From: Dioscorea cayenensis subsp. rotundata
Lineage: Eukaryota; Streptophyta; Magnoliopsida; Dioscoreales; Dioscoreaceae
Length of the DNA stretch: 64,000 nucleotides
Assembly (NCBI RefSeq): GCF_009730915.1
Contig: NC_052474.1
Coordinates: 21,115,501 to 21,179,500 of the forward strand
Reading direction: 5' to 3'
The notes beneath the pieces were generated by a model that ran no database searches, was not told the DNA's origin, and saw only the letters and a list, made by a program, of their open reading frames with translations. Positions 3,704 through 50,492 of the stretch are shown piece by piece. Position 1 is the stretch's first letter. The number at the start of each line of letters is the position of its first letter. Made by a program: the position numbers and the translations under genes.

Positions 3704-6700
3704 TCACGGTGGGTCATAAACCGAGAGTTTGGCAATCAAAAACTGAAACCGTGAGATTGTATGTGCTTTAGTGAAAATATCAGCAAGCTGCTGTATAGAG
3801 GCAATATAAGGAAGAATAATACTGCCAGCAATATAATGATGACTAACAAAGTGAAGAGCGATCTCAAGATGCTTTGTACGTTCATGAAAGACAGGATTAG
3901 CAGCGATTTTAATGGCACTCTGGTTGTCACAGTGTATAGGAGTAGGGGCAGTGACAAAGACACCAAAGTCCATCAAAAACTGTCTCAACCAAAGAACCTC
4001 CTTAGCAGTAGAAGACATAGCACCATACTCTGCTTCAGCAGTAGAAAGAGCAACAGTAGATTGTTTCTTACTTTTCCAAGAGATAAGAGAATCTCCAAAA
4101 AAAAATACAGAAACCAGTAGTAGAACGTCGATCAGAGGCATCACCTGCCCAATCAGCATCACAATAGGCGCGCAACTCAAGAGAAGATGTGGCAGAAAAA
4201 AGTAAAGAGCGAGATATAGTGCCATGAAGATAACGAAGAACGCGTAAGAGGGCAGCGTAATGAGTAGAGCGAGGAGTACTCACAAATTGACTAAGAACTC
4301 GAACAACATATACAATATCAAGCCGAGTAATAGTCAGATAAACAAGAGCACCAACAAGCGCACGATAGCGAGTAGGATCAGGCAGAGGCTCACCATCAGA
4401 AGAGGAGAGCCGGTGATGTAGCTCAATAGGAGTTGAGGCAGGTCGAAAATCGCTGATATCGACCATCGAAAAAAATGTCGATATGTACTTCGCTTGGGGA
4501 CACCAAGTAACCCTCGACGAGAATAAGCAAACCTCAAGACCAAGAAAAATAACGAAGAGGACCAAGATCTTTCATCCGAAACTCGTGTGTAAACCGTTGT
4601 TTCAAACAAAGAACAATATCAACATCATCACCAGCTGATAACCATATCATCAACATAAAGAAGTAAAAATAGTGATGCCCTCGAGAGGTTTGCTGAGTAA
4701 AGAGGGCATAATCGAAGAGCTCTCGGTGAAACCAAGAGTAAGAACCACATTAGTGAAAATCAGCTCAAACCCGAGCACGAGGAGCCCGTTTGAGTCCATA
4801 GATAGCTTTCGCGAAGATGATGACATGTTGAGAAGGATGAGAGAAACCAGGAGGAGGAGTCATATAAACATACTCAGAAAGATTGCCATGTAGGAAGGCA
4901 TTGGTCACGTCTAACTGATGAAGTGGCCAGTGACGAGTAGTAGAAATAGCAAAAAGAAGGCAAACAGTAGTCAATTTGGCTACAGGAGCAAATGTCTCCT
5001 CATAATCAATGCCATACTCCTGAGTAAAACCACGAGCAACAAGACGCGCTTTGTGGCGCTCAATACTACCATCAGCTCGGGTCTTGACTCGATAAACCCA
5101 TCGACAACTGATAGGAGTAACACCAGATGGAAGAGGAACAAGATCCCATGTATGCATGCGCTGTAGAGCATTAAGTTCTTCAGACATAGCTTGTTGCCAC
5201 TAGGGATGTTTCACTGCCTCACGATAAGACTGTGGCTCGGAATGCGAGTGAATAGTGGCAAGAAAGGCTTGGAAATCAGGAGAATAAGAAGATGAGAGAG
5301 AAAGGGCGTACTGAGCAGGAGGCCGACGAGGGCGGTCTGGGTAACGACGGGGAACAACAGGAACATCTTCAGGAGAGGATGGGTCGGCGGAGAGAGGAGT
5401 TGAATCGCCAGAATCACCAAAATTATCAATGCACCCAGAGGAAGGGGAAGGAGGAACAGAGGAAGTGTCGATGGAGACATTTGGAAAGGGCACTGAATTA
5501 GCAGTTGTGGTAGAACTCGGAAGAACTATGGAGCGGAGAGGAGAAGATGCAGTGGTAGTAGAAGACTGAAGAAAGGAAAGATTTGGGGAGGATGAAGAAA
5601 AGTATGGAGTATCTTCAAGAAAAGTGACATTACGGGAAATACGAAGACGGTGAGAATGAGGATCATAACAGCGATAGCTCTTATGTTCAGAACTATATCC
5701 AAGAAAAATACACATGGTAGAACGAGGAGAAAGTTTGGTTAGCTCGACAGTGGGCAGAAGAACAAAACATGTGCAGCCAAACGTGCGAAGATGACCATAT
5801 GAGGGAGGAAGGGAGTATAGACGCTCATAAGGTGTGATACCAGATAGAATGGAGGTAGGAGTGCGATTGATGAGATAGACGGATGTAAGAATGGATTCAG
5901 CCCAGAATGATTGAGGGACAGAAGAGGCAAAAAGAAGTGCACGTGCAGTGTCTAATATATGGCGATGTTTACGCTCAGCAACACCATTCTGAGCAGGTGT
6001 ATAAGGACAGGACTGCTGTGGAAGAGTACCGTGAGGGGAAAGTAATGTGCGAAAGGATGTAGAGAGATACTCGCGTGCCCCGTCGGAGCGAAAAATCTTA
6101 ATACGTTTACCAAACTGAGTATATACCATTTGCGTAAATTGAGAGTAAATGGCAAAAACCTCAGATCGGGAACGCATTAAATAAAGACAGGTATATCGCG
6201 AGAAATCATCAACAAAAGAGATGTAATAGAAGAAACCACCAAGAGAAGAGAAGGGTGCAGGACCCCAAACATCAGAATGAACTAGATCAAAAGTAGATTC
6301 CGAAATAGATTCTCGTGAAGAAAAAGGAAGAGCAGTGGGTTTAGCAAGCTTACAACCCATACATGGATGTGGAGGAAGAGAAGAAACAGAGCCAAGATTA
6401 CCTGAACTTGTTAAGAGTTTCAGGCGAGAACTAGATAAGTGTCCGAGGCGACAGTGCCAACGATCAACAGAACATACAGAAGCGACAATATCAGAAGATG
6501 GAGGAGCTGGAAGATGAAGAGAATCTAAGTGATAGAGGCCGCCAACTCTACGCCCGATCCCAATCCTCTGTCCTGTAAGATTGTCCTGCACGGTACAAAT
6601 AGAGGAAGAAAAGGTAACTGTGAGACCATGATCAGTTAGCTGACTAACAGAAAGAAAATTGAGGGCTAGGCCAGGGACATGATGAATGTGAGGAATGTCA

Positions 6701-7077
6701 AATGAAGTGGACCGAAGACGACCACACTGCATGGCAGGATGAAGACTCCCATCAGAAGTACGAACACTAGAAAAGGTATGAGGCGCAGTAATAGAGACTA
6801 GGTTAGAGGTATTGGCAGTCATATGATGAGTGGCACCAGAATCTAAAAATCCGTATGAGGAAGACATACCGGAGGCAATGACGTAGCAGGAGGAAACACT
6901 GGAGGGCGAGAGCACGGCGCATAGCATGAATCGCCTCAGAGGTCGAGCAACTTGAGAAAGAAGATCGCGGAAGGAGAATCGAAGCGTAAAATGTAGGCGC
7001 ATGGGGAAGAAACAGGAGATCGAGGCGAGGGCTAGATCGGTGATGATCGCCGCAATGTCGCTGTCAAGCTTCGACAT
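3704..7077 (-). pseudogene. Copia pol: protease, integrase, reverse transcriptase, RNase H (broken)
   Basis: The longest open piece, 5200..7077, holds the aspartic protease signature (LDSGATHHM near 6830), the integrase zinc-binding residues (HCRLGH, then CMGCKLAK) and the integrase core (DVWGP, SDGAREYL, GVAERKHRH). A TAG at about 5199-5201 separates it from the reverse transcriptase piece 4765..5187 (RHKARLVARGFTQ, QLDVTNAFLHG). The YVDD catalytic motif lies near 4640-4655 in another frame. RNase H and the C-terminus are in 3704..4565 (SWKSKKQSTVALSTAEAEY, HCDNQSA). The family normally makes one polyprotein. Here several frame changes and a stop interrupt it, either through decay or assembly errors. 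Confidence 0.93.
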
Positions 7078-24270: not shown

Positions 24271-27200
24271 TTATTCCTTCTCGGCAATTACCACAAACAC
24301 ATCTTTGGATGACCACTTGCGTCGTACATCTTTGGCCGGTGGATTAATGACGGCTCGTTCTGCATTTTCTAAACGGTAACCAATAACAATCTCTTTTCTT
24401 TGTCTGGCACGTAGAATTATCTCATAGAAATTCATCTCTTCGTCTTCACAAAGATAAAGATCAGCCGGTCGTATTTGAATCTCATTACCCTGTTCCAAAG
24501 GCAAGTCAATTGAAGATTTTAGACCTTACAGTCAGTTAACCATAAAAAATTTACAACTTCAGATAGAAATAACTTCATCATCAGATTGTTAGTCGCCATG
24601 CTATGTTATGTTATAAATTAAGCTACATGTGTATACAGTCAACAGAAATGAAGCCTCTTCCATTGTAAACCCTAAGAATAGATAGCACAGGGCCACGAAG
24701 CCCTCCGGATGAAGGCTAGAAGCCTAGAAGACCAGAAAAGGATCCACAGAAGGATTAAAAATGGCTTAAGTTCAAGGCTGACTGTTAACCAGATCCATTG
24801 CAAAAAGACCAGTTAATGAATCATGTAATGTTAACCAACAATAAAAAGTTCAACCGAAAATTTAAACTTAAGGATCCAACTCAATCATGAGCAAGCCAGA
24901 TTTTGTGATGTTCAAACTCAAAAGGTGATTTACTTCTTTGTAGGCCGAACACTTGAAGTTTTGAACAAGCTGCAATATATTATGGTGGTAACTTTAGAGA
25001 AATGCCTAACCTCCAGACAATAGGTCAAGTGGTCAACAATATTTGCAACCATGGGAGATGGGAAAAAACTGTTCATGAATTATACTTTAAGAGTCAGTTC
25101 ACATGGATTAAAAATCGAGTCCAATCTAATTGCTCTTGACCAACCAAAGGTATAAACTCCTTGTCAAGATCAACCAAAGGTATAAACTCAAGGAAAACTT
25201 ATACCACAAAACAAGATCAATTTTATTTTATTGCTACTAGGAAATATGAAACTGCAAGCCTTATGTAGGTCAAAATGGTAAAGATTGCAAATCAACTCCT
25301 ACACCTTCCTTAATTAATTGGTCCTCCTAACCGCGTGGCTGTGATGCAATGGTGATGGGCTAAGCATTGGACTTCTTTCTTACAATTTTTCTCAAGATTA
25401 CACAATTCTGCCTGTTTTATTACAAAATATTTTCAAGTGCATGTCATATACAATCTTTTACCTCATTTTGAAAAATCATTTGCATTGAAGAGTAATCAAT
25501 CCTTTCTTCCCCAATTATTCTGAACCATTAACTTCCCAACATTGCATCCAATACTAATAAGGGTAGTGAATATAAATTAATATGCAAGTGAACTCCTTAC
25601 ACTTATATATGGACATGTGGATATAGTTTACATAAGTAAACTTGCCTTTGTTAACTAGCCATACATTTAAAAGGCTTAATTTTCTAGATGTATATGTGGA
25701 TATAGTTCACATTGCCTTTTAGCCAATGTGAATGCTTATAAAAGAATGGGTTGATTCATTATTAATTAAAAGGATTAACTCTTTTTGGTTAATATGGCAG
25801 AGAAACTTCATAATCTACTGTCGGCCTCTACCAAATGAATGCCAATGGTGGGGTTAAGTTTTTTTTCCTCACATCCTTCTTCATGACCTAGCTTTTCTTC
25901 TTGGTCTTCCAAGTCTTATGCTATAAGAAAAAGCAATTTTACATTTATGTCCTGGTGTAAACTTCTCTTTATATTTGAAGCAAAATCCTCCTGTTCACAT
26001 GGTCTTGGGCAGTGCCAATGTGCCTCAACTTCTTCGAGGACACTTGTGCAACCCATGACAAGTTGTACGGAAGGAATTCCTTCAACTTCACCCACGAATT
26101 AAATATAGTCCGGCCAACACGAGTATCGCCATCTTGGCTAATCCTCCATCAAAGTTTACCAATTTCAATCAAGTACATGGCCACTAATAGAACTTGCTCA
26201 ACTTACGGGACCTTTGTTGCTTTGCAATACTTATTCATATCCCAAAGAAAATTCTCCAAATTTTTGGCACTCTGAGTGCTATCAAAAGATGACAAACCTA
26301 GAACAATTACTCAGGTAATGCTTTGGATTACTTCTAAGTTGAGAAATCCCACATCCTTAAAAGGTTCACATCCACCAAGAGTGCTTGTACCTCCGAATAC
26401 AACGAATACAAAATTTCCAACAACCGAACCAAACTAACACCTTTTTAATAAGATCCTCATACCTTTGACAAAGGCGAAGAAATAGTGCATCACCTCTAAT
26501 GATGGAACTAGGATTTTTTTCTAAAAGGTACCCATACAGAAAGGAATTTTTTCTAGGGAGGTCCAACAATAGATTTTACAAATATTTTTCTAAAAATATA
26601 ATTTTTTACACTATTTTTATATTATATACTGATTTGTCAAAATTCTAGGTGGCCAAACTATAGATTTTTATAAATATTTTTCTAAAAATATAATTTTTTA
26701 TAAATTAATTTGTAAAAAACTAAGGGCCAAACTATTGATTTTTTAAAATATTTTCTAAAAGAATAATTTTTGTACTCTATTTTTTAAAAAAATACAATTT
26801 TTATGCTGCGTGATTGACAATATATGGTTGCTTGCATGGTGGTTTGAATGGAATCATTACTCCACCGTCAAAGTCACTTCAAGCGTCTCCTTCAACCCAA
26901 GGAATAAACTCAAGAAAAGCTTATACTATAAGACAGGACTGATATAATTGTATTACTGCTAAGGAATATGAAACTATAATAATTATGATTAGTTATGAAA
27001 TTGATAAAAAGAGTGAATGACCAGGGGGCCTTCTACTTTTATACCCACAGCCTTACTTGTGATCACTCTTAAGTAAACTGAAATGTTGCATACAACCTAA
27101 TGCAATTCTCCTTTATTTCTTCCCCCAATTAGAACACCGACTAACATATGATTTATTTATTTTTCTTCCTCTAATTAGGAAATCAACCAACATATGATTA

Positions 27201-30200
27201 TTCCTTTCCTCTATTTAGGAAACATTGCATTATTATTTGTTGTCATACTTAGTTTTTTCATGGTCTCCTATTGTTGAGTTTGGTAACAAGTCCTCTTATA
27301 GACCTTTAAACTATGTTCAACAGATAATAGAATATAAAGACAAACTAAATCAAGGAAAGAACCCTATCTGAGTTATTGGGCCAAAGGCATTGTCCAATTG
27401 TACAAGACAGGATTGAACCTATTTATCTTCTTGTAAAGAGTTATCATTTGTATATTGCTTGAATTATGTACTAACAAACAAATAGAGATAACCAAAATAA
27501 ATATACTCTTGCAAGAAACAAAAAGATCTGGGAAGGAAAAATTGTACCTCTTCAGCAAAGAGCTCTTCCAAAACATCATTTATTTGCCTGTCCTCTGCAA
27601 CCATTGCAAGTGCCATGCTGACAAGTTCGTTCGATAGGACATAATCACTTATTTTTGACATGGATAACAAGTTCTTGGTCCTAGGGTCCAGGATTTCACT
27701 AATTATCACAGATTTGTCTGATGCCTGCTGCATCTCTCCGATCCAGGAACCCTGAGAAAAGCTTCCTCGAGGAACATGTGAAACCATCGCCTCTCTATAC
27801 GGAAGTCTCTTGGCCTGCAATGCATTGATGGTTAGTTTACTATAAACTACCTTGAAGATCAAAAGACAAATAAGTTGGGAACACCAGTTGTTTACAATTC
27901 ACTATAAGGATGTTCACATAAGTAGACACTAACTGTTGAACAAGCAGTCTAAGCTAGAAAGGCATTCAGCAGCTCTGAATAGGTAGTTCCATCTGAGCAT
28001 CATATCAATATCAAAACATGCATGCATACACAAACAACACATTGGTAGATGCAATTTCCTGGAAGATAAGAGTTAATTGTGGTGCTTCCCTTTATCTCTT
28101 CTTCTAATCTAGAAGTTTCCAAGACTAGCAAGAATTTGGCATGAGTGCTCTTTGGTCAGTTAAAATTATCAAAGACATTGGCGTATATTCATTATGTCCC
28201 ACTGAAAACCATATGAGAAATGTAAGAGAACATACCTGAATATCTCTAATAAGAAGTAAGGTTGCAAGAGACCTAGAATCAGCTTGAATTGCAGAATCTT
28301 CCAAAGATTCATCAGCCAAAATCAAAATCTGAACAAGAGAATATGCACAATTGTAGGTAGGAAAATTGCATACCATCAAAAATCATATTCATAAAAGTAC
28401 ATGAGAATTACTTACAGAATCAAATAATTGCAAGGGAAGGCTTTCCAAGTGCCGCCGAATGACGGCATTTCCTTCACGATTGACCAGAGATATATTCTCC
28501 AATCGACCGAGATCCAAACCCCCATCAATAAGTTTCTTATCCCTTTCATTCTCTGGCACCTCATTGAACATCCACAGTTCAGATCCAGGTGCTAGAAAAG
28601 CATCCAGCACCTGAAAGAAACATTGTTCACAAGAATGAAAACCGGAAATCATGTGCTTAATCAATGAGGAATAGCAGAATGAAAGAAGAGAATTTATGGT
28701 GTATTATTATATTAAGTTCTATGTCCAAATTCCATTGCCAACAACTGGCTTGCTAGCCAAAAATGCATTGAAACAACTTGACAAATGAGCATCATTAACC
28801 CACTCCCAATCTATCACAAGCAAGACAAAAGAGTGAAAGACATAAAACCTTACACAGAAAATTAATAACAACCAAATAATAACAGCTTGAGGTTAAAATT
28901 CTGATACACAAGAATGATTCAAACACTGATGCATGCCATGTAAAAATGGTGATGGATCTTTCCCATCCAACCATCCAAGACACCACAAACTGTAGCAAAA
29001 CATGAATACCAGCAGAGGTCTTCTTATCAGTCTTGTCCAGCACCATTGTACACATGGGGACTGAATCAAGGCTCCTCTAATCTAAGATCTAAGGTAAGAA
29101 AGGTTAGCTGTTAGCGTCAAGTACAGTCATTAACATGTGCATATGAATTCATCATTGTAATCTGATGGTTGATGGAACACAAATGTCAGACAACAGAAAA
29201 AAGATCATAAGAAACAAACTGGATCCATTAGAAACTGGACCAAAAACCTGAGGTCCTGTATACACCAAAAAAAATAAAAAAAAGAGTGACCGAAGGCAGC
29301 AAATTACAATTTTCAAGTAACAATAGCTCAAATTTACTCGATTATTGATAGGAAAAGAAGATGCATCGTTATAAAAATTGAAGCACATAATGAATTTTCT
29401 CTAAAATTTGAGATATAAACTATGAATCTGGTCATATTCGCAAATGTTGGTATTTCCCTAGAGAAAAGATAATGTTCTAAAATTAAAATTAAGGTCTGAA
29501 TAGTCATTTTAACACATGTTGAGAACAGCAATAAAATGCCTTATGACTGCAACAAAGACAAATCATCCATTCATAGAGGACAGGATGAAGGCTAGGTCAG
29601 AAAAATGGAACAGCATCCAGAGTTGGGACAAGTAGGCAATAAACAGAGAAATAGTTCAAGTTTTATAATAGCTTAATGCAAGCGGATCTAGTGCATGATT
29701 TGATGAGGAAAAGGATACATATACACGCAAGTTAGTAAGTTGCATCCATTCCATAACAGCTTTGTTTCATCTAACGGACTGTAAGGAAAGATTCCAGCAC
29801 TGTACAGCCTGCTCATGTATTTCACTTCCACACAAAAAAAAAAGACTATCTGCCTTAATACATAAATTTTCCTCCCTACTTCAAAGATGATAAACCCTGT
29901 ATAATTTATTACTGAATCATCTATGATCAAAACACTCAGAAAAGCATTACGATCAGAACACTCAGAAAAGTATTACGTGCAATCTCATTGTGGATCCTTG
30001 TGGAGTTTACCATAATCATATCTTCCATATCACGCCTCCAACCACAAAAAAGTATCCTTTCAGGAGATTTGGGATCAATAAAATCCTTTGGTAGGTACCC
30101 TCCTTGAACCTGCAGAATTAATACAAAAGAGAAGGTATTAGGGGCTTCAAAAGGAATAACTCACCACAATCATATCATCAATATCCCGCCTCCATCCACA

Positions 30201-33200
30201 AAGTAGAATCTTCTGTGGCTTTCTTGCAGGCCGGACAATGTCTATGTATACTGCTTCATGGACCTGAATGATAAAATTAATTGTACTTGTGTAAGTTGGC
30301 TATTGTACTATACTGCATATTAGCAATTTTCGGGGGGGATCAAGCCTAAATAATGCAAACTAGAAAAGGGTTTCGCTGGACAGACCAAGTAACAATCTCT
30401 ATCTCAATCCTTTTATCTTAGTAGAGCATTGATCCATGAACCTTTTTTGTCTTTTTTTTTTGTTGCCAATCTGTAACCTTGTTGTATAAACTAGAAACCC
30501 CTTGTTCCTATTAATTTGCACCACACAGATGAGACTCAATCCGTACCGTACTCTAAAATTAAATAACATCTGCGCAAACCAAAACTCTGCACTCAGACAA
30601 AAAAGTCATCAAATTCAAGACAAAGCTCCCCTGTTTTGGCTTCTGATACTCATTACACACAACATGCCCTAAGACACTAGTTATACACAAGATAACAGGA
30701 GGTCAAGACATTCACTGATTAACATCCTTCACTGAACAATACTAATATCAAGCACCAGCTTTTAAACACTTGCATTGCAGCAATTACATGCTTGAGAGCA
30801 ACATATAGAAAAATAAATGTCAAGAAAAAGGTTGGAATATTAATGTTGTGTTAGAGGCAGAAGCTATTTCTTTTCTCCCTATGGTTAACTAGGCAGACAT
30901 ATAAAATAAGAGCGAATACCTCAGAGCATAAAAACTAGAAAGTTGACATGTTAATTAAGAGTCACAAAAAACATTTAAAAAAAAATGAAAAATGAAGGCC
31001 GAAATTCAGCTATGGAACGAGACTTTGCTAAATATATATATTATGAAAATTCAACCATACATGACAAAAAAGATCCAATTCAATTAATTGTTGCATGAAT
31101 TAAGTAATGGTCAATGTGCACTGGTGTTAGGATTTCTATATAATTCATTTAAAAAAAAAGACAGATATTATGGAGAGATCAGGAGAAGAAATTCTAAATA
31201 TATCATCAGTTCAGAAATGTATAACCATATGAGCATAATCAGGCCATCCAAAGAAGAAGAAATCACCACAGGCAATATGGACGGAGAATAGGTATCATCA
31301 TCTTCTGCAATCACAAGTAATTCATCCCCCTCTTGAAGAACATAGGAATCATCAGGATTCAAAATGATCTTTCCTCCAGAAGATGCTACCTTCACTCCAC
31401 ATGGAACGGCATCAGGAAAGCTAATTAGCACATCTTCAAATGGCATCCCATCTAATTGAGGCCACCTTTTAATGTAAAACTCACAGTTTTCAAACCCCAG
31501 AATATCTTCCCAAATCTGCCAAAACCCAACAAATAATTGTGGTTAAGAAACAGAGATGAACAGATAAATGGAGCATTTGTTCATGCATTATTCTTCAAAT
31601 TGTTGACAACACTACCTACAACAAAATAATCATTTTTACATACTGAAATTTATCAGGAACGAAGGGCAGAAGAGAAGTGAACCAAACTGACAGTAGAGTT
31701 CAGTCAGATAGGAAACGATCTGTAGCATATATATGGAGACCAAAGATAAAATGAAGTATCAACCAAACGTATGCACACCACGATATATCTAAGCATAACC
31801 ATATAACTGATGAAGAAACCAAAAGCCAAGTAGCTATTTTCATAGAGAATTCAATTTTGGTTTTATCTGTCCATTGATAGTCAACGAAACTTGGCTGCTG
31901 CAATTTAGTGAATTGAACTGTAGATATCATGTTCTGTTAACACGAAGACGATCTTGTATAAGCAAACACCCAAAATTCATTTCAAGCAAACAATAATAAT
32001 AGGCATTCTTTCCTATATTCTCACCTATCAGGAATGGAATAAGATGATCTCCCTCACACATGCAGAATATATTTAACACAAGAGTTTTATCTATAAAAAT
32101 GAGCCTGTAGATCTTATTGGCCGGAAGCACATAAAATTACAGACGACATTCATGTGTAAATAAACACCCATGATTCATTTGAAGCAAACAACAATAACAG
32201 GTAGCCTTTCCAATATTTGCACCTATCAGGAGTGGAATAGGATGATATGCGTGGCAGATGCATATTTTGTGGTACGCACAATGTCTATAAAAATGAGCCT
32301 GTAGATATTACTGGCCAGAAGCACATAACAGTACAGATCAAACGGTATCAAAGAACAAGAAGGTTGAACTTGACCTGAGCAAGACCTGGTTGACGAGCAC
32401 ACTGAATCATCAAGCGTCCAATCACATCATGGGCAACAACAGTCTCAACAAGATCCCCTCCTACAAGTTTTACTAGAACCTCATTATCAAGATCACCCAG
32501 TTCCACCACTATGTGTCCTCTTAACCCTTCTTTAACTCCAGTTAAACTCAAAACAGTTCTCAATGCTCGTGCATCACTCTGAGATATATCCAATTAAACA
32601 AGTGATAAGTAAACATTACAAACTATAAGAACCATCCAAAGTTTCTGCTAGAATATGACCTGATCAGCATTACCATCTTCAGCCAGAACAACCACTGCAC
32701 GAGCTTTAGAAACAGATACCTGCCAAATGCCAGATGGTTTAGGACAAAAAAAAAAGGTTAGCTATCTAAAAGATGACTACAAACTGCAATCATTGAATAG
32801 GCTATATATTAAAGAGATGACCAAACACCACTATCCATTATCTGGCAATAACCAAGTGGGAAATACAAGCAGAAATCACACCATTTCTGGAAAATAATTC
32901 GAATTTAACATGGCAATGCACAGGGAAAAAAAAAAGATGACCTTCTTAAGATCAGCAAGAATTAGAGGGCTTCCACTTCTGCATATGACCGACGTTCCCT
33001 TAAAGTCAAACTCCATTTTAGCTATGTCAAGTTCCATTTCCTCCTTGTCTCGCTCTGCCATCACAACTACAGTTCCACCACCTAAACTCTCATTAGCAAT
33101 TGCCAACTGATTCAGTAAAGATCCCTGTTCCCACCCAAACATTAGATGGTAAGAAAGGGAAAAACCAGCAAGCAGATTTGCATATGTAAAAATGATACTG

Positions 33201-35775
33201 TTCATTCATGATTTCAATCCATGACTAGGAACAATCTAAGTAACCAATGGAATGCTCCTAGAAATTGCCAGCCTCCTGTATAAATCCTGAAAGGAATTTA
33301 TGATATGAAATATAAGCACAGTTGAAAACAATGTTTTTATCTTTTGGCAAAAATCTGACAAAATTTCTCTTCATTGAATAACTAAGACTAGTTAGCCCAC
33401 AACAGCCCTTCCGCAATGAGTTGAACTATTGATATCAGAAAGGCATAGAAGGAAAAAAAAAATGCTACTGAGAAACCAATAGCTTGCTAACATGGTACCT
33501 CAAGGTTTTACTTTAACAACCCTTTTATATTAAATGAATGAATTGTTGACATGGTACCTCCAGTAACAAGAAGTTGCAACATATATTTTGACACACATTT
33601 TTGACAAAGCACACCTTAGATTAAAAGAAATATTGCATCATCTATCTAGTAATTGCTAACTAGAAACCAATAGCTCACAGTCTCTGCACGGCAAACATCT
33701 ATATCATTTGCTCAAGACAAAACCACTGAGTCTCCAAGTGTATTATATCATTTACTTTTGAAATGCTAGATAAGAAATGAAAAGCAATGTACAAAAGCAT
33801 TGGATCTAGTACCAGCTTGTCACTCCAACCAAGTATCAGTGTGTGATTTTTTTCAATCACTTCACTCCTTCCCTTCCTCAGTGAATCAAACTTCTCAGAG
33901 ATTGCATCAGACACAAGCCCAAGCATCATGGCAAATATGAGCATTCCACCAAAACTGATAGACACAGAAACTAATTTGGGACCAATACCAACAGAATTGG
34001 CATGGTTCCCAGAATCAGCTACAAAGGTCCATGATAACCACAAACAATCTGCTAAAACATCATCTGTGACACCATAAAGAGCCAAACCGCCAAGGCATAT
34101 CAGCATCAAGGTAGCAAGTAGTAAAGCCGATGGTTTAGCATATGGATGAACTGATAGGAATAAATCAACTTGATAGGCTAACTGCTTGTTAAGAGAAACT
34201 CCTTCAGTATCCGATGACCTCAACCGTGAAATCCGATCAATATACTTGAGAATAATAAGAGGGATGGACAACATAGTGACTGAAAAGAACAGAGCAGAAT
34301 TTTTTAAATGTTTATTTGACGTATGTTCATCAACTTGTGGTGTAACGCTGGCAACATCCAAGTGATCATAGAAAGCACAAGCTTGTAATCTTCTATTCAG
34401 CATCAACATCTGGTCCTGTAAGAAAATAAGAGAGCCAAACTGATAAGTATATCAAAAAGGGAGACACCAACCTAGAATTTGGCATGTCCCTCAGATCCCG
34501 TTATTATATAAAATAGAGATTACCACTCATGAAAAGTTACAGCCTTAAAAGGACGGCAAAGTTAGAATGTAAAGAGTCAATTTATAAAGAAGTGCAAATA
34601 GATGGTAACCTATAAGACTTCACCTGTAGATTCCCAACTTGCCCCTGCAGTGAGAAATTTTTGTGAAGCAGAGAACTGAAGCATGCGATGATAAACTGCA
34701 AGAAACACCAGACAAATATAGACCAAAATAAGACCACCTTCATATGACAAAATTATTAATTTCAAACATTAACAAATGAATTTTCAAACTAGAAACAATG
34801 TGATACTGGTAACAGCACGAACAATCACATAGTCCAAGTGATAAAAAAAAAAACACAATAATGAACAAACACAATGCCAGAAAGCATATGATATCATAGA
34901 ATCAACAAATGCCTATCAGCATGAAGTAAGATTTCACTAACTACCAAATCAAAAGACATCAAATTGAGATTCAACAACAAATAAATCAGAAGATACATGA
35001 GAAAAATAAAAGATCAGTATCTTACTAAAAAGAGAAATACAGAACATGAGACTATGATCCTTGTGTATAAGCTTCACAAAAGTCACAGAAACAATATAGA
35101 AGATTAGAAAGAGTATAAATCTCACTCACCTAAAAACATTGACTCAAGACCTCCCAGATAAGAACCATAGGAAACAGAGAAGAAAACCAATCAAACGCAA
35201 ACCATAAACCCAATCAGAAGATTCAGAACTCAATAAACAAACATAAATTCAAGAAAACGTAGATGTGACATAAAAAAGGAACAAAATAATCCAAGAAAAT
35301 CGCACAAACCGCAGACAAAGCAGCCGCAGGCCGTCCGATCCTAGCCCTACTACCACCACCCAAAACCCCACCACCTCTAGCCCCAGTTGCCCTATCTTCC
35401 CGGCAGCTCTCCACTCCATCAGGCTTCCCCTTGTCCGCCAACGTCGATGGCGTATCGAAACAAACCTTCCTTTTCACAGCCGCATACCTCGGATCCCTCC
35501 GCCGGATGGGCGGCGCTGCAGAGGTGGGCGGGGAGGAAGTGGCGGATGAGGAGCTGAAACTCGAGCGCTGGGGCCTGGCATCGCGGAAGAAGGACTTTGG
35601 AGGCTGAGGCAGCTCGGCCAGAGGTGGAAGGGAAGGCGGAGGAGGGTTTTCTAGGGTTGATGAGGGGTCTAGATCGCGCCGGTGTGGTGGCGGGGAGGAA
35701 GGGGGCGGCGGAGGGGAAGAACCAGTCCCGGTGAACGGGCGGCGGTGAAGCCTCGGAGGAGTCCAAGGAGGACAT
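24271..35775 (-). CDS. CASTOR: CASTOR-like ion channel with a duplicated alternative exon
   Basis: Cation channel of the CASTOR/POLLUX (DMI1) family, which acts at the nuclear or plastid envelope and in symbiotic calcium signalling in other plants. Exons in transcript order: 35310..35775, 34624..34695, 33813..34415, 32942..33124, 32660..32719, 32375..32578, 31267..31515, then 30165..30263 and/or 30011..30109, then 28416..28610, 28236..28328, 27548..27814, 24271..24489. Features: MSSLDSSEASPPPVHRDWFF start, a hydrophobic segment across exons 1-2, further helices and the pore motif ADSGNHA in exon 3, first RCK-like domain from HTLILGWSDKL, and a second from ILLCGWRRD. About 900 aa expected. All internal exons are phase 0. 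Exon 1 needs a one-base frame change between the RDWFF start and RRRDPRYAAVKRKVCFDT. The final intron holds transposon debris. Confidence 0.93.
24490..27547. other. Last CASTOR intron with degenerate transposon remains
   Basis: A 3058-nt intron. Two diverged direct repeats (about 25145-25265 and 26893-26990, sharing TATAAACTCAAG...AATATGAAACT) bracket about 1.7 kb of unrecognised sequence. They could be remnants of LTRs. A 30-bp tandem duplication sits at 25142-25200. Confidence 0.5.
26560..26815. repeat. Three degenerate tandem copies of a 75-90 bp AT-rich unit
   Basis: Each copy starts with a GG(C)CAAACTAT-like word and continues AATATTTTTCTAAAAATATAA. Located inside the last CASTOR intron. 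Confidence 0.75.
30011..30109 (-). other. CASTOR alternative exon B (33 codons)
   Basis: Acceptor TCTGCAG after a pyrimidine-rich stretch, donor GTAAAC, phase 0 at both ends, no stop codon. It encodes VQGGYLPKDFIDP, a variable part, then RILFCGWRRDMEDMIM. The C-terminal half aligns residue for residue with exon A; the N-terminal half has diverged. It starts 55 nt downstream of exon A in the transcript. Confidence 0.88.
30165..30263 (-). other. CASTOR alternative exon A (33 codons)
   Basis: Acceptor ATTCAG, donor GTGAGT, phase 0 at both ends. It encodes VHEAVYIDIVRP, a variable part, then KILLCGWRRDIDDMIV. This is the version I remember from legume CASTOR proteins. Confidence 0.9.
31955..32340. 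repeat. Tandem duplication with a period of about 194-198 bp in a CASTOR intron
   Basis: Two copies (about 31955-32145 and 32150-32340) share AAACACCC, AGCAAACAA, CACCTATCAGGA and ATAAAAATGAGCCTGTAGAT at constant spacing. The copies are visibly diverged. Confidence 0.85.
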
Positions 35776-48700: not shown

Positions 48701-49492
48701 CGAAGACCATCGTCGCCGTGTGTGAGACCAAGAACGAGGGCCACGTCTTGAGATTAGGCTTCGAGCTTTCCCGATCACGAATTTGTTAGTGCGTTCGCCA
48801 TTGCCTTTCGCGAAAATCAAAGAAGGGCCCTCTCTTGGTATATGACTTGACTCGGTATTGACGCAAGCGGTGTCCTTGAATAATCTCGATTAATGGGGTC
48901 GTGTGCTCAATTATTTAAGACCCTGGCCGATTGTGAAATATGGCGCCCGTTAACTAGGTTGACGCCGTAATCCACAAACTGCGGTATTGACAAGAACTTA
49001 GCGGAAATATAAGGTTTAAGCGGTAAGCTCTCGGTTATTAAACAGAGATATAAAATGAAACAGAGACCCATTTTGTTGTTAAGCAAGAGACGAGAATATG
49101 AAACAGGGGAGACAACAAATGTTAAACTGTAACATCTCATTTCTTAAACGTCAACTCATTTCAGCAAAACTACAGCCATATCCAAACGAAACGGGGAAAA
49201 GTACATTATAAATAATGCACAAATCATAACAATCGACTATTTCGATAGTGTATACATACGAAAATGCAAAACAAAACAAAACCCCAGCCGAGAAATCTCC
49301 CTGCAGACTAACAAAACCCCAGCCGAGAAATCCCCCTGCAGACTTCAATATCTTCCAACAAAAACAGGAGCACAAAACAAAACCGAAAAATCTTTCTTTA
49401 TAACAGAACAGTTAACATAAAACCATACTCAATACTTTAGAGTGCAAACCCCAGTGATGCCAACTAGTTGCACGCGGGGACTTCTCCTTCGA
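45741..49492. other. CpG-rich MULE interior without recognised gene
   Basis: Short open frames occur on both strands (for example minus 48280..48744 with PPARKRKIDAPGRRP, and minus 46131..46367), but I cannot match them to a family. Given the indel density of the transposase next door, a second gene here could be hidden by frame errors. Confidence 0.5.
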
Positions 49493-50492
49493 NNNNNNNN
49501 NNNNNNNNNNNNNNNNNNNNNNNNNNNNNNNNNNNNNNNNNNNNNNNNNNNNNNNNNNNNNNNNNNNNNNNNNNNNNNNNNNNNNNNNNNNNNNNNNNNN
49601 NNNNNNNNNNNNNNNNNNNNNNNNNNNNNNNNNNNNNNNNNNNNNNNNNNNNNNNNNNNNNNNNNNNNNNNNNNNNNNNNNNNNNNNNNNNNNNNNNNNN
49701 NNNNNNNNNNNNNNNNNNNNNNNNNNNNNNNNNNNNNNNNNNNNNNNNNNNNNNNNNNNNNNNNNNNNNNNNNNNNNNNNNNNNNNNNNNNNNNNNNNNN
49801 NNNNNNNNNNNNNNNNNNNNNNNNNNNNNNNNNNNNNNNNNNNNNNNNNNNNNNNNNNNNNNNNNNNNNNNNNNNNNNNNNNNNNNNNNNNNNNNNNNNN
49901 NNNNNNNNNNNNNNNNNNNNNNNNNNNNNNNNNNNNNNNNNNNNNNNNNNNNNNNNNNNNNNNNNNNNNNNNNNNNNNNNNNNNNNNNNNNNNNNNNNNN
50001 NNNNNNNNNNNNNNNNNNNNNNNNNNNNNNNNNNNNNNNNNNNNNNNNNNNNNNNNNNNNNNNNNNNNNNNNNNNNNNNNNNNNNNNNNNNNNNNNNNNN
50101 NNNNNNNNNNNNNNNNNNNNNNNNNNNNNNNNNNNNNNNNNNNNNNNNNNNNNNNNNNNNNNNNNNNNNNNNNNNNNNNNNNNNNNNNNNNNNNNNNNNN
50201 NNNNNNNNNNNNNNNNNNNNNNNNNNNNNNNNNNNNNNNNNNNNNNNNNNNNNNNNNNNNNNNNNNNNNNNNNNNNNNNNNNNNNNNNNNNNNNNNNNNN
50301 NNNNNNNNNNNNNNNNNNNNNNNNNNNNNNNNNNNNNNNNNNNNNNNNNNNNNNNNNNNNNNNNNNNNNNNNNNNNNNNNNNNNNNNNNNNNNNNNNNNN
50401 NNNNNNNNNNNNNNNNNNNNNNNNNNNNNNNNNNNNNNNNNNNNNNNNNNNNNNNNNNNNNNNNNNNNNNNNNNNNNNNNNNNNNNNNNNNN
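49493..50492. other. Assembly gap of exactly 1000 N
   Basis: Unknown sequence; the round length suggests a placeholder of unspecified true size. Long reading frames that cross it are artefacts. Confidence 1.

Follow-up and report, generated by a model that had tools for sequence, protein, structure and literature searches.

A probable pair of mutually exclusive exons at the RCK1-RCK2 junction of the yam CASTOR channel

Introduction

In animals, very old mutually exclusive exons that change the encoded protein are well known, and to our knowledge few are known in plants. The calcium-gated RCK channel BK (Slo) has STREX-type splice variants that change the linker between RCK1 and RCK2, and in this it resembles the CASTOR pair described here; STREX is, however, an optional insert and not a replacement pair, and BK is a potassium channel. 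The tandem alternatives of animal alpha-tropomyosin and the 4a/4b pair of OGDH, which are arranged in a similar way, have their branch point less than ~50 nt from the donor (PMC7969005), and in animals a donor-to-branch-point distance below ~50 nt is held to block the joining of adjacent exons (PMC7969005, PMC5740500). According to PMC7969005, the OGDH pair alters calcium sensitivity too.

CASTOR of Lotus japonicus is described in PMC6697748 as a calcium-regulated calcium channel that is required for nuclear calcium spiking. Its solved structures (6o7c, 6o6j, 6o7a) represent the same channel as that encoded by the yam gene, with two RCK domains. In the Lotus structure paper the RCK1-RCK2 linker comprises residues 553-580 and is described as 'like a rope', RCK2 starts at residue 581, H463 is inserted between R589 and R590, and D442, a Ca(I) ligand, bridges to R590; the D442A channel is leaky without calcium. 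The paralogue POLLUX/DMI1 (7vm8) possesses, at the same place as CASTOR, an exon of the type called B below.

The window analysed here, a stretch of 64,000 nt from Dioscorea cayenensis subsp. rotundata, contains a CASTOR gene in which two alternative versions of this exon, A and B, are arranged in tandem (Table 1). Our main reading, to which we assign a probability of roughly 0.76, is that A and B are mutually exclusive, that their joining is sterically hindered, and that they specify two channel forms likely differing in calcium behaviour. A search of the CASTOR/POLLUX literature, covering titles and main-text passages, returned no description of the pair; the sequences of the A and B isoforms are already known as database models, and as far as found in those passages the pair itself is not discussed.

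Results and Discussion

The CASTOR gene of yam

The gene is located on the minus strand. Its soluble part is closer to Lotus CASTOR (6o7c; 1002 bits) than to Medicago DMI1 (7vm8; 874 bits), which identifies the gene as CASTOR. Of 490 positions of its protein, 481 match P0087 of Dioscorea alata. In two close relatives, P0101 with A and P0180 with B, a domain scan found the Castor_Poll_mid and RCK domains.

Table 1. Coordinates of the CASTOR gene, its exons and the introns around A and B in the window, and position of the yam POLLUX gene.
Feature	Position	Strand	Remarks
CASTOR gene	24271..35775	(-)	exon 1 ATG to stop
Exon 1	35310-35775	(-)	placement
CASTOR exon	34624-34695	(-)	
CASTOR exon	33813-34415	(-)	
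CASTOR exon	32942-33124	(-)	
CASTOR exon	32660-32719	(-)	
CASTOR exon	32375-32578	(-)	
Common upstream exon	31267..31515	(-)	RCK1 end, Ca-site residues of the EDDD motif
Intron preceding A	30264..31266	(-)	1003 nt; 1157 nt when B is the acceptor exon
Exon A	30165..30263	(-)	33 codons, VHEAVYIDIVRPARKPQKILLCGWRRDIDDMIV
A-B intron	30110..30164	(-)	55 nt
Exon B	30011..30109	(-)	33 codons, VQGGYLPKDFIDPKSPERILFCGWRRDMEDMIM; type of the crystallised Lotus CASTOR
Intron following B	28611..30010	(-)	1400 nt; 1554 nt when A is the donor exon
Common downstream exon	28416..28610	(-)	RCK2
CASTOR exon	28236-28328	(-)	
CASTOR exon	27548-27814	(-)	
Last CASTOR exon	24271-24489	(-)	
Yam POLLUX	G000:C4:19281500 (L003:6501)		same contig as CASTOR, ~1.9 Mb away; B-type exon of 102 nt

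As placed, exon 1 displays a one-base frame break: it starts in the CASTOR frame (MSSLDSSEASPPPVHRDWFFPS) and is then displaced by one frame close to a run of AAAG (minus strand, 35595-35598), at a place where D. alata P0087 is uninterrupted. The break is either a sequencing error or a broken allele. The last intron (24490-27547, 3058 nt) contains, at ~25960-26010, a possible decayed piece of a retroelement gag, judged by eye from its motif. Elsewhere in the window, ORFs on the minus strand at 3704-7077 resemble, by eye, the integrase and reverse-transcriptase/RNase H parts of Ty1/copia elements, and at ~49470-50490 about 1 kb of letters is unreadable (X in all frames), corresponding to an assembly gap or a masked stretch.

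Exons A and B

The original prediction described A and B as two exons of 99 nt each, with open frames, AG/GT splice sites and phase 0, separated by 55 nt, and on recheck all of these values and the coordinates proved exact; the common upstream and downstream exons are also of phase 0, and both are multiples of three. This agreement in phase was rejected as proof of an exclusive pair, and taken alone is weak evidence, because every other coding piece of the gene placed between 34695 and 24271 (10 out of 10) also has a length divisible by three. A and B are adjacent internal exons of equal length and the same phase, and their sequences are related: 57 of 99 nt are identical (39 of 48 over the last 48 nt), as are 13 of 33 residues. 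Translated from exon 34624-34695 onward, the A form and the B form each give 748 letters, the final stop counted, and neither is interrupted by an earlier stop. By frame, the two exons can be exchanged between the same neighbours; joining of A to B would hold the frame as well, so that splicing is the sole barrier to a joined product.

As a control for chance, the introns of the CASTOR gene were searched for AG...GT intervals of exactly 99 nt; of the 18 found, three are open, and none of these three resembles A or B. Compared with the 584-Mb genome, exon A gave one full match and one weaker match, the latter corresponding to the B-type exon of POLLUX.

Distribution in plant proteins

Plant proteins were drawn from a collection clustered at 90% identity, in which isoforms are merged, by taking the best 120 of 269 matches to an A-aimed query, 120 of 930 to a B-type query and 120 of 793 to a Cryptomeria query, together 253 distinct proteins. 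Among the matches listed, 99 have A then B, one has A, A and B, 34 have A only and 119 have B only (P0117, counted as B only, also has a shortened piece of A); the A-aimed search puts two-exon proteins first, and the proportions of the types are not to be read as frequencies. Models with both exons or with A belong to more than 80 genera (hand count among the matches listed), including grasses, orchids, gingers, magnoliids (Persea, Asimina), eudicots and Cryptomeria, and also a protein whose tag, Gb_17779, we read as Ginkgo. The idea that the yam gene is unusual in retaining both exons was rejected, models with both exons or with A being this widespread. The Ginkgo-tagged protein (P0021) is nearly equidistant from CASTOR and POLLUX, with 780 and 790 bits, and so is P0027 of Cryptomeria, with 783 and 764 bits. 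No name of a fern, lycophyte or moss was recognised among the best 120 of 793 matches to the Cryptomeria query. P0003 of Xanthoceras, a protein of 493 aa, displays a triple array composed of two identical copies of A followed by B.

Age and constraint

A tree was built from 191 distinct segments of 33 residues each, 78 of type A and 113 of type B; the two types separate in it with a support of 0.986 and no segment misplaced. Both gymnosperm A segments group with A and the gymnosperm B segments group with B, which dates the A/B duplication to the seed-plant ancestor or earlier. Over the 94 two-exon models the mean pairwise identity is 0.78 for A and 0.77 for B, compared with 0.74 and 0.69 for the flanking exon parts; it reaches 0.94 in the second half of A, and A and B of one protein have an identity of 0.40. 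Judged by these identities, A is under as much constraint as B and the neighbouring exon pieces.

Position in the channel and predicted effect on gating

Alignment to the solved Lotus CASTOR, a construct of residues 312-853 on which the numbering is based, places the exon at residues 565-597, with B aligning gap-free to 566-596, and confirms that the segment comprises the linker and the start of RCK2. The crystallised Lotus protein has the B version, whereas the yam gene carries A and B; no solved structure with the A version was present among the structure-search matches. The choice of exon would exchange the RCK1-RCK2 linker and the first RCK2 strand and leave the GWRRD core in place, and in either form the arginines of this core would clamp the two N-lobes to each other at the Ca(I) site. 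Both clamp arginines, R589 and R590, are nearly invariant (134 and 135 of 135 A segments, 219 and 219 of 219 B segments; these and the following totals include five models with A running into the middle of B). At residue 581 (Lotus numbering) 133 of the 135 A segments have Q and all 219 B segments have E; at residue 593 all 135 A segments have D and 200 of the 219 B segments have E.

Since the rope-like linker and the residues round the clamp differ between A and B, we infer that the two forms most likely gate differently, in calcium dependence or in leak, and would so give different nuclear calcium signals. Symbiotic calcium signals are driven by this channel, and the exchange falls in its gating ring, at residues partnering D442; if the A form gates differently, CASTOR models for cereals, yams and trees would need a second channel. 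Structures predicted for Ananas P0101 (A) and P0180 (B) from 25 sequences each had mean pLDDT values of 40.5 and 39.3 and were not used.

Splicing of the A-B intron

In the proposed transcript the common upstream exon would be joined to either A or B, and this in turn to the common downstream exon. Plant introns usually need ~60-70 nt to be spliced, and a literature search for a minimum plant intron length returned no figure; the smallest of the other introns of the CASTOR gene are 81 and 87 nt. The A-B intron contains a branch-point-like CTAAT, the A of which is 27 nt from the donor, and a second candidate, TTAAT, at 47 nt. With the donor of A only ~27 nt from the likely branch point of B, direct A-B joining would be hindered; the ~50 nt threshold comes from animal work, and the yam branch point is a consensus match, whereas the branch points of alpha-tropomyosin and OGDH, which are animal genes, have been mapped. 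When the yam intron is read through it adds VSYSF and then a stop, and D. alata P0087 ends identically. The intron is retained as 18 in-frame codons (54 nt) in models of Phragmites, Eragrostis, Populus, Cucurbita and Andrographis, and as 22 codons (66 nt) in a model of Papaver armeniacum. That a 54-nt A-B intron is read through and not removed fits sterically enforced mutual exclusion and the steric argument of the original prediction, by which A-B joining in yam would be blocked.

Read-through from A into the intron meets a stop in D. alata P0087 and P0251. The latter is grass-like, comprises 38 member sequences on 21 contigs and has an apparent A-B intron of 52 nt. It is one of the 'lgn' proteins, which derive from contigs of ~3-6 kb; these contigs are too short for CASTOR with its introns and were therefore taken as transcripts. 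Among the matches listed, seven CASTOR 'lgn' proteins were found, six with B and one with A plus the intron.

Named models point to alternative use of the two exons. For each of Curcuma, Ananas and Sorghum, the models X1 (B) and X2 (A) have the same length, and all differences between them fall inside the exon; in Ziziphus X1 and X4 differ there too, X4 being additionally without 23 residues of the upstream exon. The claim of mutual exclusion gains from these isoform models and is opposed by a direct A-to-B junction in 88 of the 94 two-exon models; in five further models the junction from A lies in the middle of B. The names on the A-B-joined models are mostly of the 'hypothetical protein' sort, and six are 'isoform X' (Cucumis melo var. 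makuwa, a Populus hybrid, Solanum stenotomum, Nicotiana attenuata, N. sylvestris and Salvia). These joins may mean either that some plants do splice the A-B intron or that the models are wrong.

If the 88 joined models, six 'isoform X' names included, are taken at face value, B would be constitutive and A an optional cassette, and a longer A+B channel with 33 extra residues, which the preserved frame permits, would be a normal product. We consider this unlikely: 34 of the 253 proteins are A-only models, which in three species have no difference from the B model outside the exon, several models retain the 54-55-nt intron, and the fold would have little room for a duplicated first RCK2 strand. 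It is less probable again that A acts as a control exon, with most transcripts that include it retaining the A-B intron and ending up truncated or degraded, so that less CASTOR is made. P0087 and P0251, which run from A into a stop, are what such a function would produce, but the retained 54 nt are open and in frame in the five other models, full-length A-only isoform models exist, and A is as strongly conserved at the protein level as B.

This conservation, at 0.78 over 94 models and 0.94 in the second half, also argues against A being a disused relic of an old exon duplication, as do its intact open frame and splice sites in yam and the named A-only isoform models; although no transcripts from yam and no A in the sampled legumes were seen, as a relic would have it, we regard this explanation as highly improbable. 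Mutually exclusive splicing is thus preferred, and both A and B are presumably used in yam.

POLLUX, legumes and grasses

The predicted resemblance of B to POLLUX was borne out: against DMI1, B scores 37.2 bits and A 30.7 bits. POLLUX/DMI1 differs from the yam CASTOR, which has A, in that all 16 POLLUX-like proteins among the matches listed are of B type and no A-like match was found in the 787-nt intron of the POLLUX gene of the yam genome.

The original prediction also assigned A to legume CASTOR and B to grass CASTOR, and this was contradicted. The crystallised Lotus protein is of B type, grasses such as Sorghum have both exons, and named legume CASTOR proteins are B only in 36 of 36 cases from 19 genera (best 120 of 930 matches to the B-type query, which would rank A-only proteins lower); no legume names occur among the best 120 of 269 matches in the A-aimed search. 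A was likely lost in legumes. The nodulating Morella has A, and the loss therefore does not simply follow nodulation. As a wider and tentative reading, which we rate at somewhat below an even chance, seed-plant CASTOR would be two channels by exon choice, a choice that would set leak, calcium dependence and spike pattern, and legumes would have dropped A near their origin. If so, just one of two gating modes is seen in the plants used to characterise CASTOR; the structure and recordings behind the present comparison are from Lotus, with the B version only in the solved sequence.

In the wheat group of grasses (P0061, P0062, P0065-P0067, P0094 and P0102), exon A has GMRRD instead of GWRRD, a change at the position of Lotus W588; 7 of the 135 A segments have it and none of the 219 B segments.
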